Shown here in pieces: positions 45,788 to 51,064 of a DNA stretch of 64,000 nucleotides (positions are counted from its first letter, which is position 1; every line of letters starts with the position of its first letter). The notes beneath the pieces were generated by a model. It made no database searches and had not been told where the DNA came from. It worked only from the letters and a program-made list of their open reading frames with translations. The stretch spans positions 124,001 to 188,000 of the forward strand of contig NZ_HE578925.1 in assembly GCF_000313565.1 (NCBI RefSeq), given 5' to 3'. Position numbers and translations under genes: made by a program. The DNA comes from Dielma fastidiosa. Lineage in GTDB: Bacteria; Bacillota_I; Bacilli_A; Erysipelotrichales; Erysipelotrichaceae.

Positions 45788-45814
45788 AAGGCTGCGTAAT
45801 GCAGTCTTTTTCTT
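45788..45814 (+). terminator. Intrinsic terminator after the SPFH gene
   Basis: AAGGCTGC-GTAAT-GCAGTCTT then TTTCTTTT. Confidence 0.82.
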
Positions 45815-45983: not shown

Positions 45984-46054
45984 TATGTTTTTCGTATAGT
46001 CTGAATTCATCCACTATGTGAAGAATTTGACAATTAAAAAAGGGAGAGAAAATT

Positions 46055-47512
46055 ATGAGCTTATTTACACATGAAGCGAGACAATTCAAATTTGATGTAT
46101 TAAGAGAAGTTGCACGCCGTACTTTCGAAGGAAGGCTAAGTGAATCAACACCCGATGAATTAGCTATGCTGCTGATTCCTACCAGTCAGGCTTCATTTCG
46201 ATGCTGTGTCTATAAGGAAAGGGAAATCATTCGTGAAAGAACCAGAATGGCAGCTGGCAAAACACCGATTGTAAGCAATCAGCCGCATAATCCAAAGCAG
46301 ATTGTCAGAGTGCTGGAAGCGGCATGTGACGGCTGTACGATTCATAAAATATGTGTGACTGATAACTGCCGTAAATGTATGGCTAAGAGCTGTCTGGCTT
46401 CCTGTCGTTTTGATGCGATGCGGATGGGATCTGATTCTGCCTATATCGATTATGATAAATGTAAGGAATGCGGCGCTTGTGTTAATGCCTGCCCATTCCA
46501 TGCAATCGTTGAGACGCAAAGACCGTGCCGTAAGAGCTGTCCGGTAGATGCAATCTCAATGGATGAGTATAATATTGCCAAGATTGATGAAGGTAAGTGC
46601 ATCAACTGCGGCGCCTGTCAGTCAGTTTGTCCATTCGGAGCCATTGAGGATATGAGCCAAATGGTGCCGGTAGTTGAACAGCTTCGTGACAAGGCTTCTA
46701 TGACGGCCATTATTGCTCCGGCGATTCAAGGTCAGATGGATAATGCAACATTGCCGCAGATCAAGCAGGCAATTCGGCTGCTTGGCTTTGATGAGGTATA
46801 TGAGGCTGCCAGCGGTGCTGATGCGGTTGCCTGGTATGAAAAACAGGATCTGCTGCATCACAAGGCAGAAGGCGTACAGATGACAACTTCATGCTGTCCG
46901 GCTTTTGTGAATATGGCCCGTCTGCATTTCCCGACAATCTATGAAAAGAATGTCAGCAAGATGGTATCACCGATGGAAGCAATCGCTCGTTATATCAAGT
47001 CAGTCAAGGATACAAAAGTAGTCTTTATCGGTCCGTGTGTTGCGAAAAAACAGGAAGCGATGGAAGACTTCTCAGTGGTTGACTATGTACTTACTTTTGA
47101 AGAGCTGGCAGCAATGCTGACGGCTCAGCATATTGATGTTGAAGGTGTTGAACCGCGTGAAGGCGATGAACCAAGCGCTCATGGCCGCGGCTTTGCCATT
47201 GGCGGCGGTGTCAGCAAGGCGGTTGCACAGGCGGCCAAGGAATGTGCTGATGAGGATGCGATTACCTCACTTTATGCCGATGGTGCAGCAGAATGCAAAA
47301 AGAATCTGCTGATGATGAAAGTAGGGCGTTTTAACGCTGATATTCTTGAGGGTATGTGCTGTCCGGGCGGCTGTGTCTGCGGACCGGCAACGATTGAAAA
47401 TCCAATGAAAGTAAAACAGCGCATGACTAAAGAAAATGCCGCAATCAAAGATAAACCGATTAAAGCAACACTGGAAACATTTGATTTCTCTAAAATTAAT
47501 CTTCATAAATAA
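46055..47512 (+). CDS. [FeFe] hydrogenase, monomeric group B type
   Basis: 485 residues. The N-terminal block FRCCVYKEREIIRERTRMAAG is typical of group B enzymes; a Cys-rich ferredoxin region follows (CDGCTIHKIC, CRKCMAKSC, then CKECGACVNACPF and CINCGACQSVCPF, two [4Fe-4S] sites). The H-cluster domain has L1 TTSCCPAFV, L2 FIGPCVAKKQEA and L3 LEGMCCPGGCVCG, all four cluster-binding Cys intact. It should interconvert H2 and protons with ferredoxin, in the cytosol. GGGAGAG precedes the ATG. It opens a four-gene cluster; maturases HydE, HydF and HydG are not in the window. Physiological direction is not known for this group. Confidence 0.9.
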   Translation: MSLFTHEARQFKFDVLREVARRTFEGRLSESTPDELAMLLIPTSQASFRCCVYKEREIIRERTRMAAGKTPIVSNQPHNPKQIVRVLEAACDGCTIHKICVTDNCRKCMAKSCLASCRFDAMRMGSDSAYIDYDKCKECGACVNACPFHAIVETQRPCRKSCPVDAISMDEYNIAKIDEGKCINCGACQSVCPFGAIEDMSQMVPVVEQLRDKASMTAIIAPAIQGQMDNATLPQIKQAIRLLGFDEVYEAASGADAVAWYEKQDLLHHKAEGVQMTTSCCPAFVNMARLHFPTIYEKNVSKMVSPMEAIARYIKSVKDTKVVFIGPCVAKKQEAMEDFSVVDYVLTFEELAAMLTAQHIDVEGVEPREGDEPSAHGRGFAIGGGVSKAVAQAAKECADEDAITSLYADGAAECKKNLLMMKVGRFNADILEGMCCPGGCVCGPATIENPMKVKQRMTKENAAIKDKPIKATLETFDFSKINLHK

Positions 47513-47534
47513 TCTAAGGAAAGAGGAAACAGTT

Positions 47535-47780
47535 ATGGTAACAATTGAAATTTGTATTGGAAGCAGTTGTTTCGTGAAGGGAAGTAATGAAGTCGTAGAG
47601 TTGTTGAAGAATTATATCGCTGAACATCATTTAGAGGAAAAGGTACAGCTTAAGGGCGCTTTCTGTATGGGACAGTGTACGAAAGGTCTGGGTATTAAAG
47701 TGAATGGCAAGATTCTTGAGGGTGCTACGCTTTATAATGTGGTAGATCTGCTTGAACCTGAATTAAAGGAATTGTTATGA
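47535..47780 (+). CDS. Thioredoxin-like [2Fe-2S] ferredoxin
   Basis: 81 residues with ICIGSSCFVKG at the start and GAFCMGQCTKGLGI in the middle: the Cys spacing of NuoE/HydC-type [2Fe-2S] thioredoxin-fold proteins. ATG at 47535 with AAAGAGG upstream; a longer frame overlaps the hydrogenase and has no ribosome site. Its stop overlaps the start of the PAS hydrogenase by four bases (ATGA). It probably carries electrons to or from one of the two hydrogenase proteins. Confidence 0.88.
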   Translation: MVTIEICIGSSCFVKGSNEVVELLKNYIAEHHLEEKVQLKGAFCMGQCTKGLGIKVNGKILEGATLYNVVDLLEPELKELL

Positions 47781-49447
47781 GTAAAATCATCGCATTAAAG
47801 GAAAATAATTGTAAAAGCTGTCTTAAATGCGTCCGTAACTGTCCGACTAAGGCAATTACTTTTGAAAGCGGCAGCCCGGAAATCATTGAAGAAGAATGCT
47901 TATCATGCGGCCGCTGTTACTTGTTCTGTCCGCAAAGTGCAAAAGAGGTGCGCAGTGATCTTGAGCGTGTGAGAGCATGGCTTAAGGCTAAGGAAGAAGT
48001 TGTTATCTCAGTAGCGCCGTCTTATCCAATTGTATGGCCTAATTTCAGTAAGCTGAAGCAGGCACTGCTTGAGGTGGGTTTTAGTGCGGTTGAAGAAACC
48101 GCGCAGGGAGCTGCGGTAGTATCGTCACAATATGTCGGTTTGATGCGTGAGCAGTCGATGACGAATATTATTGAAACGTGCTGTCCGGTTATTGTCAGGT
48201 TGATTGAGACAAAATATCCATCATTGATCAGTCAGCTGAGTCCCATCGCGTCACCGATGATTATTCACGGCAGAATGCTTAAGGAAAAATATCCGAATGC
48301 GAAAGTGGTTTTTTTGAGTCCATGTGTGGCTAAGCAGAATGAAGCATTAGATGAACGCTTTACCGGCAGTGTTGACGCAGTGATCAGTATGCCGGAAATG
48401 GATGAATGGCTGCTTGATACGGAGCTTTATGATGAAGAAGCTATTGAGCCGCAGGAAAATATTGCCCGGCTTTATCCAATCAGCGGCGGTATTATTAAGA
48501 CGATTGATAATTTCAGCGGCTATAAGCGATTAGCCGTAGAAGGTATAGAACGCTGTCAGACGGCGCTTCAATCAATTGAAAACGGCCATCTTAAAGGATT
48601 CTTTTTTGAGATGAATGCCTGCTTAGGCGGCTGTCTGGGCGGCCCGTATTTATATGCTTACAAGGAAAATGAATGGCTGGCTCAAACGCGTATTTTAAAG
48701 GCTGAGGAAGCTGGGAAAATCGATTATCAGGACTGCTCGCTGCCGGTGAGTGCTAAATGGCAGGATGATCATGTTGATCAGCCTGAATTCAGTGAAGCGG
48801 CAATTGATGAAGTTCTGCAGTCGATGGGCAAGGCGGATTATTCAAGACAGCTCAACTGCGGCGCCTGCGGATATGATACATGCCGTGAAAAGGCAATTGC
48901 GGTATTGCTTGGCAAGAGTGATCCGAAGCATTGTCTGCCATACGCTTTAGAGAATGCAGAATCTATTTCTAATTTAATTATTGAACATACACCGAATGGT
49001 ATTATTGTGCTTGATGCTTTCCGGAAAGTAAAAGAGATTAACCCTTCGGCGATTAAGCTTTTAAAACTGCAGAATTTCAGTGTTAAGGGATTTGATATTC
49101 AATCCATCCTGCCATCTGGACAGATCAGTGATGTGCTGGATCATTTAGATGGGGTTAAATATTTTATTGAGGAATATCCCGATGCCGGTAAGGTGATTGA
49201 GCATGCTGTTATTCCGGTTAAGGAAGAAAATGCCAGCTTTATCATTTTGATGGATCTGACCGAAAAGATGCAGCAGGAAGAAAAACTGAAACAGCTGCGC
49301 CGTGATACGATTGCCTCCACGCAAAAGGTTATTGATAAACAGATGCGTGTGGTTCAGGAAATCGCTTCGCTGCTTGGTGAGACTACCGCTGAGACAAAGG
49401 TCGTATTGACTAACCTTAATAAGACGATTGAGGGAGAGTCGGAGTGA
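47777..49447 (+). CDS. PAS-containing sensory [FeFe] hydrogenase homologue (HydS-like, group C)
   Basis: 556 residues in order: two ferredoxin sites (CKSCLKCVRNCP and CLSCGRCYLFCP, 1-60); an H-cluster domain with L1 ETCCPVIV, L2 FLSPCVAKQNEA and L3 NACLGGCLGGP (cluster Cys kept, surroundings altered relative to catalytic types); a further Cys4 iron-sulphur site LNCGACGYDTC (about 357-367); a PAS domain (about 395-505, TPNGIIVLDAFRKVKEINP); and a C-terminal coiled coil. This layout is that of putative H2 sensors rather than enzymes. It overlaps both neighbours (ATGA with the ferredoxin, TGATG with the phosphatase), so stoichiometric production with a SpoIIE phosphatase is expected. Confidence 0.88.
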   Translation: MSKIIALKENNCKSCLKCVRNCPTKAITFESGSPEIIEEECLSCGRCYLFCPQSAKEVRSDLERVRAWLKAKEEVVISVAPSYPIVWPNFSKLKQALLEVGFSAVEETAQGAAVVSSQYVGLMREQSMTNIIETCCPVIVRLIETKYPSLISQLSPIASPMIIHGRMLKEKYPNAKVVFLSPCVAKQNEALDERFTGSVDAVISMPEMDEWLLDTELYDEEAIEPQENIARLYPISGGIIKTIDNFSGYKRLAVEGIERCQTALQSIENGHLKGFFFEMNACLGGCLGGPYLYAYKENEWLAQTRILKAEEAGKIDYQDCSLPVSAKWQDDHVDQPEFSEAAIDEVLQSMGKADYSRQLNCGACGYDTCREKAIAVLLGKSDPKHCLPYALENAESISNLIIEHTPNGIIVLDAFRKVKEINPSAIKLLKLQNFSVKGFDIQSILPSGQISDVLDHLDGVKYFIEEYPDAGKVIEHAVIPVKEENASFIILMDLTEKMQQEEKLKQLRRDTIASTQKVIDKQMRVVQEIASLLGETTAETKVVLTNLNKTIEGESE

Positions 49448-50625
49448 TGAATATCCATGTTGAGACATATACCGCTTCTTTAAATAAGAAGTATGAGGAA
49501 TTATGCGGTGATCGGGTGAAAATTGTCCGCAACGCGGATTCCTGCATTTTAGTGCTTGCCGATGGTCTTGGCAGTGGGGTAAAAGCAAATATATTAGCGA
49601 CGCTTACTTCTGAAATCTTATCAACGATGGTTGCGGAAGGAACAACAATTGAAGAAGCCATTCAGACAATCACGGCTACGCTGCCGGTGTGCCGTGAACG
49701 CGGCGTTGCCTATTCGACCTTTATCATCGTCCAGATTTTTTATGACGGCCGTGTTTATTTGGCGGAGTATGACAGTCCTGATGTGATTTTTCTGCAGGGC
49801 AGCCGGGCTGGTACTTTTGAAAGAGAAATTCATGTGCATTCAGAGAAGAAGGTTCGGGAAGCGCATTTTATGGTTGAACCCGGAGATCGATTGATTTTAT
49901 TTTCTGACGGCATCGTTCATGCCGGGGTTGGTTCAATTTTGAATTTTGGCTGGGATAAGAAAGAAATCACTCAGCATCTTTTAACGATGCAGCATTATAA
50001 CGATAATGCCAGAACGACGACTTGGAATCTGCTGCATGCGGTTAATGATCTGTATCAGGGACTGCCGGGAGATGATTCCACGGTAGCAGTTGCGCATATT
50101 CTTGAGCCAAAAGAAACAATGATGATGGTTGGCCCGCCGGTAAATAAAGAAGATGATGAGGTTGTAGCTCGTAAACTAATGAGCGCTACCGGCAAGAAAA
50201 TTGTCTGTGGCGGCACGACTTCACAGATCATTTCACGTTATCTCCATGAAGAAATCAAAATGGATGATCTGCTTAGCTTTACCGGTGATGTACCGCCGAT
50301 TGCCAGAATCAAGGGAATTGATTTGGTTACTGAGGGTGCATTGACGATTGGCAAGGCACTGCAGTATCTTGAGGAATGTGCAAAATCAAGAGATTACTAT
50401 GAGCAATTTATCGAAGCAGACCGTAACGATGGGGCTTTCTTATTGGCCCACACACTTTTATGCGACTGCACAGCGGTTCACTTCCTTTTAGGAACCGCCG
50501 ATAATATTGCTCATGCTTCAATCAATTATTCGCCGATTTCACTCAGTCAGAAGATCAAGGTCATCGAAAAAATGGGTGAAGAGTTAAAAAAATTAGGTAA
50601 AATTGTCACAATTGAAAAATTTTAG
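49447..50625 (+). CDS. SpoIIE/PP2C-type serine phosphatase coupled to the sensory hydrogenase
   Basis: 392 residues. The N-terminal 230 or so form a PP2C-like domain of the SpoIIE group: CILVLADGLGSGVKANI (metal-binding Asp-Gly), GDRLILFSDGIVHAG, and LPGDDSTVAVAHI (second metal Asp). The remaining 160 residues (VVARKLMSATGKKIVCGGTTS, ALTIGKALQYLEE) form a domain I do not recognise. ATG at 49447 overlaps the upstream stop; GGGAGAG about 12 bases before. It should remove phosphate from a protein, typically an anti-sigma-factor antagonist; no such partner is in the window. Output of the H2/redox sensor by position (inference). Confidence 0.87.
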   Translation: MNIHVETYTASLNKKYEELCGDRVKIVRNADSCILVLADGLGSGVKANILATLTSEILSTMVAEGTTIEEAIQTITATLPVCRERGVAYSTFIIVQIFYDGRVYLAEYDSPDVIFLQGSRAGTFEREIHVHSEKKVREAHFMVEPGDRLILFSDGIVHAGVGSILNFGWDKKEITQHLLTMQHYNDNARTTTWNLLHAVNDLYQGLPGDDSTVAVAHILEPKETMMMVGPPVNKEDDEVVARKLMSATGKKIVCGGTTSQIISRYLHEEIKMDDLLSFTGDVPPIARIKGIDLVTEGALTIGKALQYLEECAKSRDYYEQFIEADRNDGAFLLAHTLLCDCTAVHFLLGTADNIAHASINYSPISLSQKIKVIEKMGEELKKLGKIVTIEKF

Positions 50626-50683
50626 TCGTTTTTCGACAAAATCCGCTCTTGGTTTCCACTAAAATAAGGAGTGGGTGATCAGA

Positions 50684-51064
50684 ATGAGTATTCAATTAAT
50701 TGCGTGTATTAATGATTCCGCAAAAATATTTAAGGGAAATGATAAAGTGCTGCTGCATACGCTGGCCAATGCTGACCGCAATCAGAAGCAGGCGTTCTTT
50801 CGCTTTCATGATTTTGAAACAATTTTAGCTGGCTGCAGTTCATTCTTTGAGGATCAGTGTATCTGTACAGAAGCAGATACACTTTATTTACGCAATGAAT
50901 ATCTCAGAAAAAATTATTCATTAACGGTATATGAAGATCTGCTGATCACCAATACCTTAGATGATAATCCATTTCTTGAATATCTGCTTCGATATGAAAG
51001 ATGTTGGTGTGTCATTGATGAAAATCAAGGTGTTCACTGGCTGGGGGTATTGTCAAAGCGGTGA
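50684..51064 (+). CDS. Hypothetical protein downstream of the hydrogenase cluster
   Basis: 126 residues, soluble, mixed composition, with Cys at several positions (ACIND, AGCSS, QCICTE, RCWC). No family is recognised. The start is uncertain: GTG 50675 lies three bases after AAGGAG, ATG 50684 lies 12 bases after; the ATG is taken. It is 58 bases from the phosphatase, with a small hairpin (GTCG-TTTTT-CGAC) in between that lacks a strong T-run, so it may belong to the same transcript. A link to hydrogen metabolism is only positional. Confidence 0.65.
   Translation: MSIQLIACINDSAKIFKGNDKVLLHTLANADRNQKQAFFRFHDFETILAGCSSFFEDQCICTEADTLYLRNEYLRKNYSLTVYEDLLITNTLDDNPFLEYLLRYERCWCVIDENQGVHWLGVLSKR

Follow-up and report, generated by a model that had tools for sequence, protein, structure and literature searches.

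The window, by which we mean the whole 64,000-nucleotide stretch of Dielma fastidiosa DNA analysed here, carries what its gene content identifies as an hfs-type operon, a kind known from Thermoanaerobacterium, in a genome from which the hydrogenase maturases HydE, HydF and HydG are missing. A PAS-bearing [FeFe]-hydrogenase (HydS) lies beside a serine phosphatase, and a further hydrogenase belongs to the same operon. We put at about 0.5 the probability that this operon combines a ferredoxin-linked group B hydrogenase with a switch formed by HydS and the phosphatase, in which HydS would read the low-potential electron state; the ferredoxin linkage of the hydrogenase is predicted from the HydB family to which it belongs. 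The reading is supported by the adjacency of HydS to the phosphatase, the invariant PP2C residues, the tail helix of HydS, the linkage to rex, adhE and kinase genes, and the absence of the maturases.

Operon structure and the upstream region

Gene calling and domain searches placed four genes on the forward strand between 46055 and 50625, in the order HydB, [2Fe-2S] protein, HydS and PP2C/SpoIIE phosphatase. As a preliminary description of this DNA had reported, all four run in one direction and the last three overlap, with ATGA at 47777 joining the [2Fe-2S] gene to HydS and TGATG at 49445-49449 joining HydS to the phosphatase. The [2Fe-2S] protein (47535-47780, forward strand, 81 AA) is thioredoxin-like and of the NuoE type (PF01257, 5e-8), and starts at ATG 47535, the start at 47436 in the ORF list merely marking the longest frame. 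For the phosphatase gene (49447-50625, forward strand), ATG 49447 within the TGATG overlap with the HydS stop codon is most likely the start, rather than GTG 49444. A terminator-like hairpin at 45788-45808 ends the gene preceding the operon. An Rfam search of the operon region returned zero RNA matches, and sigma-70-type promoter-like matches there were not above the expected number. Following the phosphatase, at 50675-51064 on the forward strand, is a gene for a 129-AA protein that has no Pfam match and is kept in the nearest relative (L051); its membership of the operon is uncertain.

HydB (46055-47512, forward strand, 485 AA) scored 537 bits against TIGR04105, for which the cut-off is 450, placing it among the group B monomeric [FeFe]-hydrogenases, and its H-cluster motifs TTSCCP, GPCVAKK and EGMCCPGGC are intact. 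The palindrome TGTGAAGAATTTGACA at 46017-46032, 38 nt before the HydB start, resembles a Rex operator (11/12 matches, p=0.012) and is predicted to be one. Similar boxes lie 28-41 nt upstream of HydB in loci L051, L091 and L096, giving a combined p of about 2e-5 over 13 related loci that are not independent of one another.

HydS and the adjoining phosphatase

Phosphatase-linked sensory hydrogenases constitute group C3 of HydDB. In the window HydS (47777-49447, forward strand, 556 AA), Pfam domains and alignment defined an N-terminal 2x[4Fe-4S] ferredoxin domain (47801-47941) whose cysteines are invariant (C12, C15, C18, C22, C41, C44, C47 and C51), followed by the H-domain (Fe_hyd_lg_C, residues 74-290; 47996-48646) with conserved C136, C183, K186, C282 and C286, K186 being the equivalent of the lysine that usually contacts the diiron site. 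The ETCCP, SPCVAK and NACLGGC motifs noted previously are all present. Further downstream on the same strand are a C-terminal [4Fe-4S] motif (PF04060, residues 358-388; 48848-48940; C361, C364, C369 and C386) and a PAS core (48977-49120), the latter a weak match that was found again in 32/32 relatives scanned. The highest conservation in HydS falls on a C-terminal helix (residues 516-548; 49322-49420, forward strand): over 100 sequences the mean majority-residue frequency was 0.81 for this helix, 0.54 for the H-domain and 0.40 for PAS, and M523, I529, A530, L533, G534, A538 and K541 reached a frequency of 1.00. HydS likely passes its output to the phosphatase by contact through this helix.

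AlphaFold modelled the phosphatase with a pLDDT of 87, and Foldseek matched the N-terminal half of the model to 3pu9, SpoIIE (5mqh and 5ucg), RsbX (3w40) and RsbU phosphatases, in agreement with the Pfam assignment of a PP2C/SpoIIE-type domain (SpoIIE residues 32-218; 49447-50103, forward strand). The acidic metal motifs E17, D22, D39-G40, D154-G155 and D209-D210 were invariant in 110 relatives; the protein has both the PP2C fold and the metal-binding Asp residues of the family, and the preliminary view of the metal motifs as intact is borne out by alignment. The remaining 171 AA (50110-50622, forward strand), earlier described as an unrecognised domain, indeed stayed unclassified: nothing in Pfam matched them, the best Foldseek match to the PDB was not significant (E 0.07), and a profile of the domain gave only chance matches to solved structures. 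Modelled alone, the domain was nonetheless well folded (pLDDT 90). It carries GGTT, PP, GxDLVTEG, DGA and NxAH motifs, and its invariant residues, among them GG, PP, G-D-L-T-E-G and N, suggest that it has a pocket for binding or catalysis. Within the phylum it occurred in 40/392 genomes, always inside a frame of 387-477 AA; the 392-genome search showed no copy apart from the phosphatase and, among the matches to the domain, no fused HydS-phosphatase protein.

Relatives were collected by this 392-genome phylum search with the C-terminal domain and by an alignment search that yielded 80 loci from named genomes, where a scan with a single protein query had found zero relatives. The named-genome loci include Clostridia, Bacteroidales, Treponema and a record labelled Calditrichales. 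HydS lay immediately 5' of the phosphatase in 106/110 loci from several phyla, far beyond chance and in keeping with the sensor-phosphatase pairing first proposed from the window; in the remaining 4/110 our simple ORF caller reported a long antisense ORF at the HydS position. The [2Fe-2S] gene stood just before HydS in at least 72 of the 110 loci, and HydB lay within -4 to +3 genes in 56/110, with a HydABC set following elsewhere. At one locus (L070, genome G015), HydS and the phosphatase are followed directly by two genes resembling nfnAB (ferredoxin-NADP oxidoreductase). In two single-contig Bacilli (L060 in G120, L067 in G280) the [2Fe-2S]-HydS-phosphatase set has no adjoining HydB, and the HydS sequences branch within a Clostridia group, which suggests acquisition by transfer.

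Linkage to fermentation genes

Among the 110 neighbourhoods, rex was present in 23, adhE in 19 and an APH-type kinase in 12, including Treponema and Bacteroidales; by our own estimate, rex would be expected by chance in about 1% of neighbourhoods. The order rex-adhE-kinase-[2Fe-2S]-HydS-phosphatase-HydB, or one near it, recurs in several Bacilli and one Treponema. The window operon itself contains neither rex nor adhE, and the single rex gene of its genome lies elsewhere. In Thermoanaerobacterium, deleting hfsA or hfsB increases ethanol and adhE expression, whereas deleting hfsC or hfsD does not (PMC5707799), and the rex/adhE linkage together with the Rex-like box fits these genetics. The link to fermentation proposed in the preliminary description thus draws support from the relatives' operons, the window's own box and the hfs mutants. 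For its suggestion of a STAS target, a search of the window genome returned one STAS match, a 114-AA protein with a DacF-like neighbour that is probably SpoIIAA, and a HATPase_c_2 protein lies in the second hydrogenase operon described below.

Missing maturases and intact H-cluster residues

Profile searches found none of HydE, HydF and HydG in the window genome, which is 98.5% complete in 95 contigs; HydG gave no match at E 0.001 and HydF nothing above cut-off, the weak HydF matches being Era, Der, MnmE and FeoB-type GTPases when their sequences were read. The host therefore does not encode the set expected for a functional [FeFe]-hydrogenase. This search had been set beforehand as a test that could refute the preliminary claim of H2 as the signal, and with all three maturases missing the claim is not supported as stated: H2 cannot be assumed to be what HydS senses.

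HydE and HydF were missing from 42/50 operon-bearing genomes (the window genome counted), some of them single contigs, and shared the same 8/50, namely three genomes of one family (f9) and five Clostridia. Almost every operon-bearing genome of the Bacilli is without the three maturases. HydG mirrored this distribution both in 23 operon-bearing genomes (E 0.001) and in the phylum sample (1e-60), with one weak match in G120 (2e-4) below the cut-off. Among the 392 sampled genomes of the phylum, 156 had an [FeFe] H-domain protein (E 1e-30) and 14 had HydG, all within the 156, leaving 142/156 hydrogenase-bearing genomes without it. On the HydS tree maturase status must have changed three times, and well-supported branches force two or more of these changes, so the maturase-less state is not one accident. 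A literature search of partial coverage found no publication stating that Erysipelotrichia lack HydEFG.

In maturase-less genomes the H-cluster residues are nevertheless intact in HydB (27/27) and HydS (35/35; C136, C183, K186, C282 and C286), as are the motifs of group A HydA. A TSCSP variant in the HydA of the window genome was considered as a lost ligand and rejected, since the HydA1 of Acetobacterium woodii (7q4v) carries this variant too. HydABC operons persist in genomes without maturases, and a wide hydrogen toolkit persists in the window genome. Its second hydrogenase operon (G000:C7, L083:8016-15981) encodes a bifurcating-type HydB and HydA (HydABC-type), a NuoE-like protein, a group D-like sensory hydrogenase, a PHP protein, a HATPase, a HATPase_c_2 protein and two small proteins that are DRTGG-type by look only; the HATPase_c_2 protein may be a kinase that counteracts the phosphatase. 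At another site (G000:C1; L084, L002), a group A hydrogenase-like protein, apparently with two C-terminal rubredoxin-type repeats, lies amid unrelated genes. Either the diiron site arrives by an unknown route, or HydB and HydS act as redox devices equipped only with [4Fe-4S] clusters; the preserved pocket favours the former, as full conservation of K186 and the H-cluster residues in maturase-less genomes argues that the diiron site is still used.

Proposed mechanism and alternatives

In the mechanism we propose, HydS would use its iron-sulphur clusters to sense the low-potential electron state, and would also sense H2 if the diiron site is held; lacking HydEFG, it would respond to the redox state of ferredoxin or else obtain its diiron site by some unknown route. 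PAS would pass the signal on to the conserved helix at the C-terminus, which would dock on the phosphatase, and the latter may then dephosphorylate a Ser/Thr phosphoprotein of the circuit formed by Rex, AdhE and hydrogenase, and thereby determine how products are divided between H2/acetate and ethanol.

It is possible, if tentative, that the hydrogenases and HydS hold a complete H-cluster, made independently of HydEFG or taken up ready-made, and that HydS is a true H2 sensor, which would be a special case of the mechanism above and not exclusive of it. Every HydB and HydS counted above and the group A HydA of maturase-less genomes keep all H-cluster ligands along with the K358-equivalent, and the HydABC operons have been retained; moreover, other gut bacteria have active group B enzymes (PMC12578642), a HydB homologue occurs in all Archamoebae examined, though Entamoeba is without maturases (PMC10711303), and apo-enzyme can be matured by synthetic diiron complexes (PMC7460606). 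On the other hand, HydA is reported to need all three maturases (PMC6212873), and no candidate alternative maturase was seen near the genes, including any radical-SAM candidate near the group A hydrogenases of maturase-less genomes. The broader claim that most [FeFe]-hydrogenase-bearing members of the group assemble a working H-cluster without HydEFG, the window HydS being a genuine H2 sensor made in this way, we regard as rather doubtful. That the maturases are present and simply too divergent for recognition, or were lost in assembly gaps, is improbable. A gap could account for the window genome alone, with its 95 contigs, but the maturases are also missing from the single-contig genomes G120, G280, G203, G323, G384 and G267 and from Holdemania massiliensis AP2 and Anaerorhabdus furcosa, the models used do yield strong HydE, HydF and HydG matches in other Bacilli and in 5/5 Clostridia tested, and the three are missing together. 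Assembly gaps are thus largely refuted as the cause.

The phosphatase might instead act independently of HydS, the two being co-regulated redox genes and the enzyme reading a ligand of its own through the C-terminal domain, where the invariant G, P, D, E, T and N residues form a pocket-like set. We consider this arrangement unlikely, given that the two genes are neighbours almost without exception, that their codons overlap in the window and that the tail of HydS is conserved.

Comparison with known systems

Hydrogenase genes are often taken as evidence of hydrogen production in the gut. If 142/156 of the phylum's hydrogenase-bearing genomes in the sample are without HydG, either such inferences are wrong for them or a second route of H-cluster assembly exists, and culturable members allow a direct test between the two. 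The hfs switch also controls the ethanol yield of industrial thermophiles, and its mechanism can be approached concretely through the conserved tail of HydS, the C-terminal domain of the phosphatase and the linkage to Rex, AdhE and the kinase.

The window operon shares with hfsABCD of Thermoanaerobacterium (PMC5707799, PMC11837493) a PAS-[FeFe] HydS (HfsB), a serine phosphatase (HfsC) and a HydA2-like hydrogenase (HfsD), likewise in linked genes suspected to be regulatory; it differs in gene order and in a host without HydEFG, and the likeness is one of gene content, not of direct sequence comparison. Regulation by HydS/HfsB was proposed by Zheng et al. (as cited in PMC5707799) and in the hfs papers, so the regulatory idea is already published and not new. 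What is new here is that the operon occurs without maturases, together with the counts across the phylum, the conservation of the HydS tail and the linkage to rex, adhE and kinase genes; our search, of partial coverage, found no paper reporting these. The group C HydS proteins of Ruminococcus albus and Thermotoga maritima share the H-domain, PAS and extra C-terminal [4Fe-4S] motif (PMC13104023), in a setting unlike that of the maturase-less window host. TamHydS of group D (PMC8163306, PMC13104023) has its counterpart elsewhere in the window genome, in the group D-like sensor found with HATPase and HydABC (L083); group D sensors lack PAS and sit in a different operon, whereas the window HydS has PAS. 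The window phosphatase shares the PP2C fold and metal sites of RsbU, RsbX and SpoIIE, but is without their N-terminal regulatory linker and has a C-terminal domain of its own with no known match. Finally, Entamoeba and Rhodospirillum rubrum likewise have an H-domain gene without HydEFG (PMC4967309, PMC10711303); those are scattered cases, whereas here the condition extends to most of the hydrogenase-bearing genomes sampled from one bacterial phylum.
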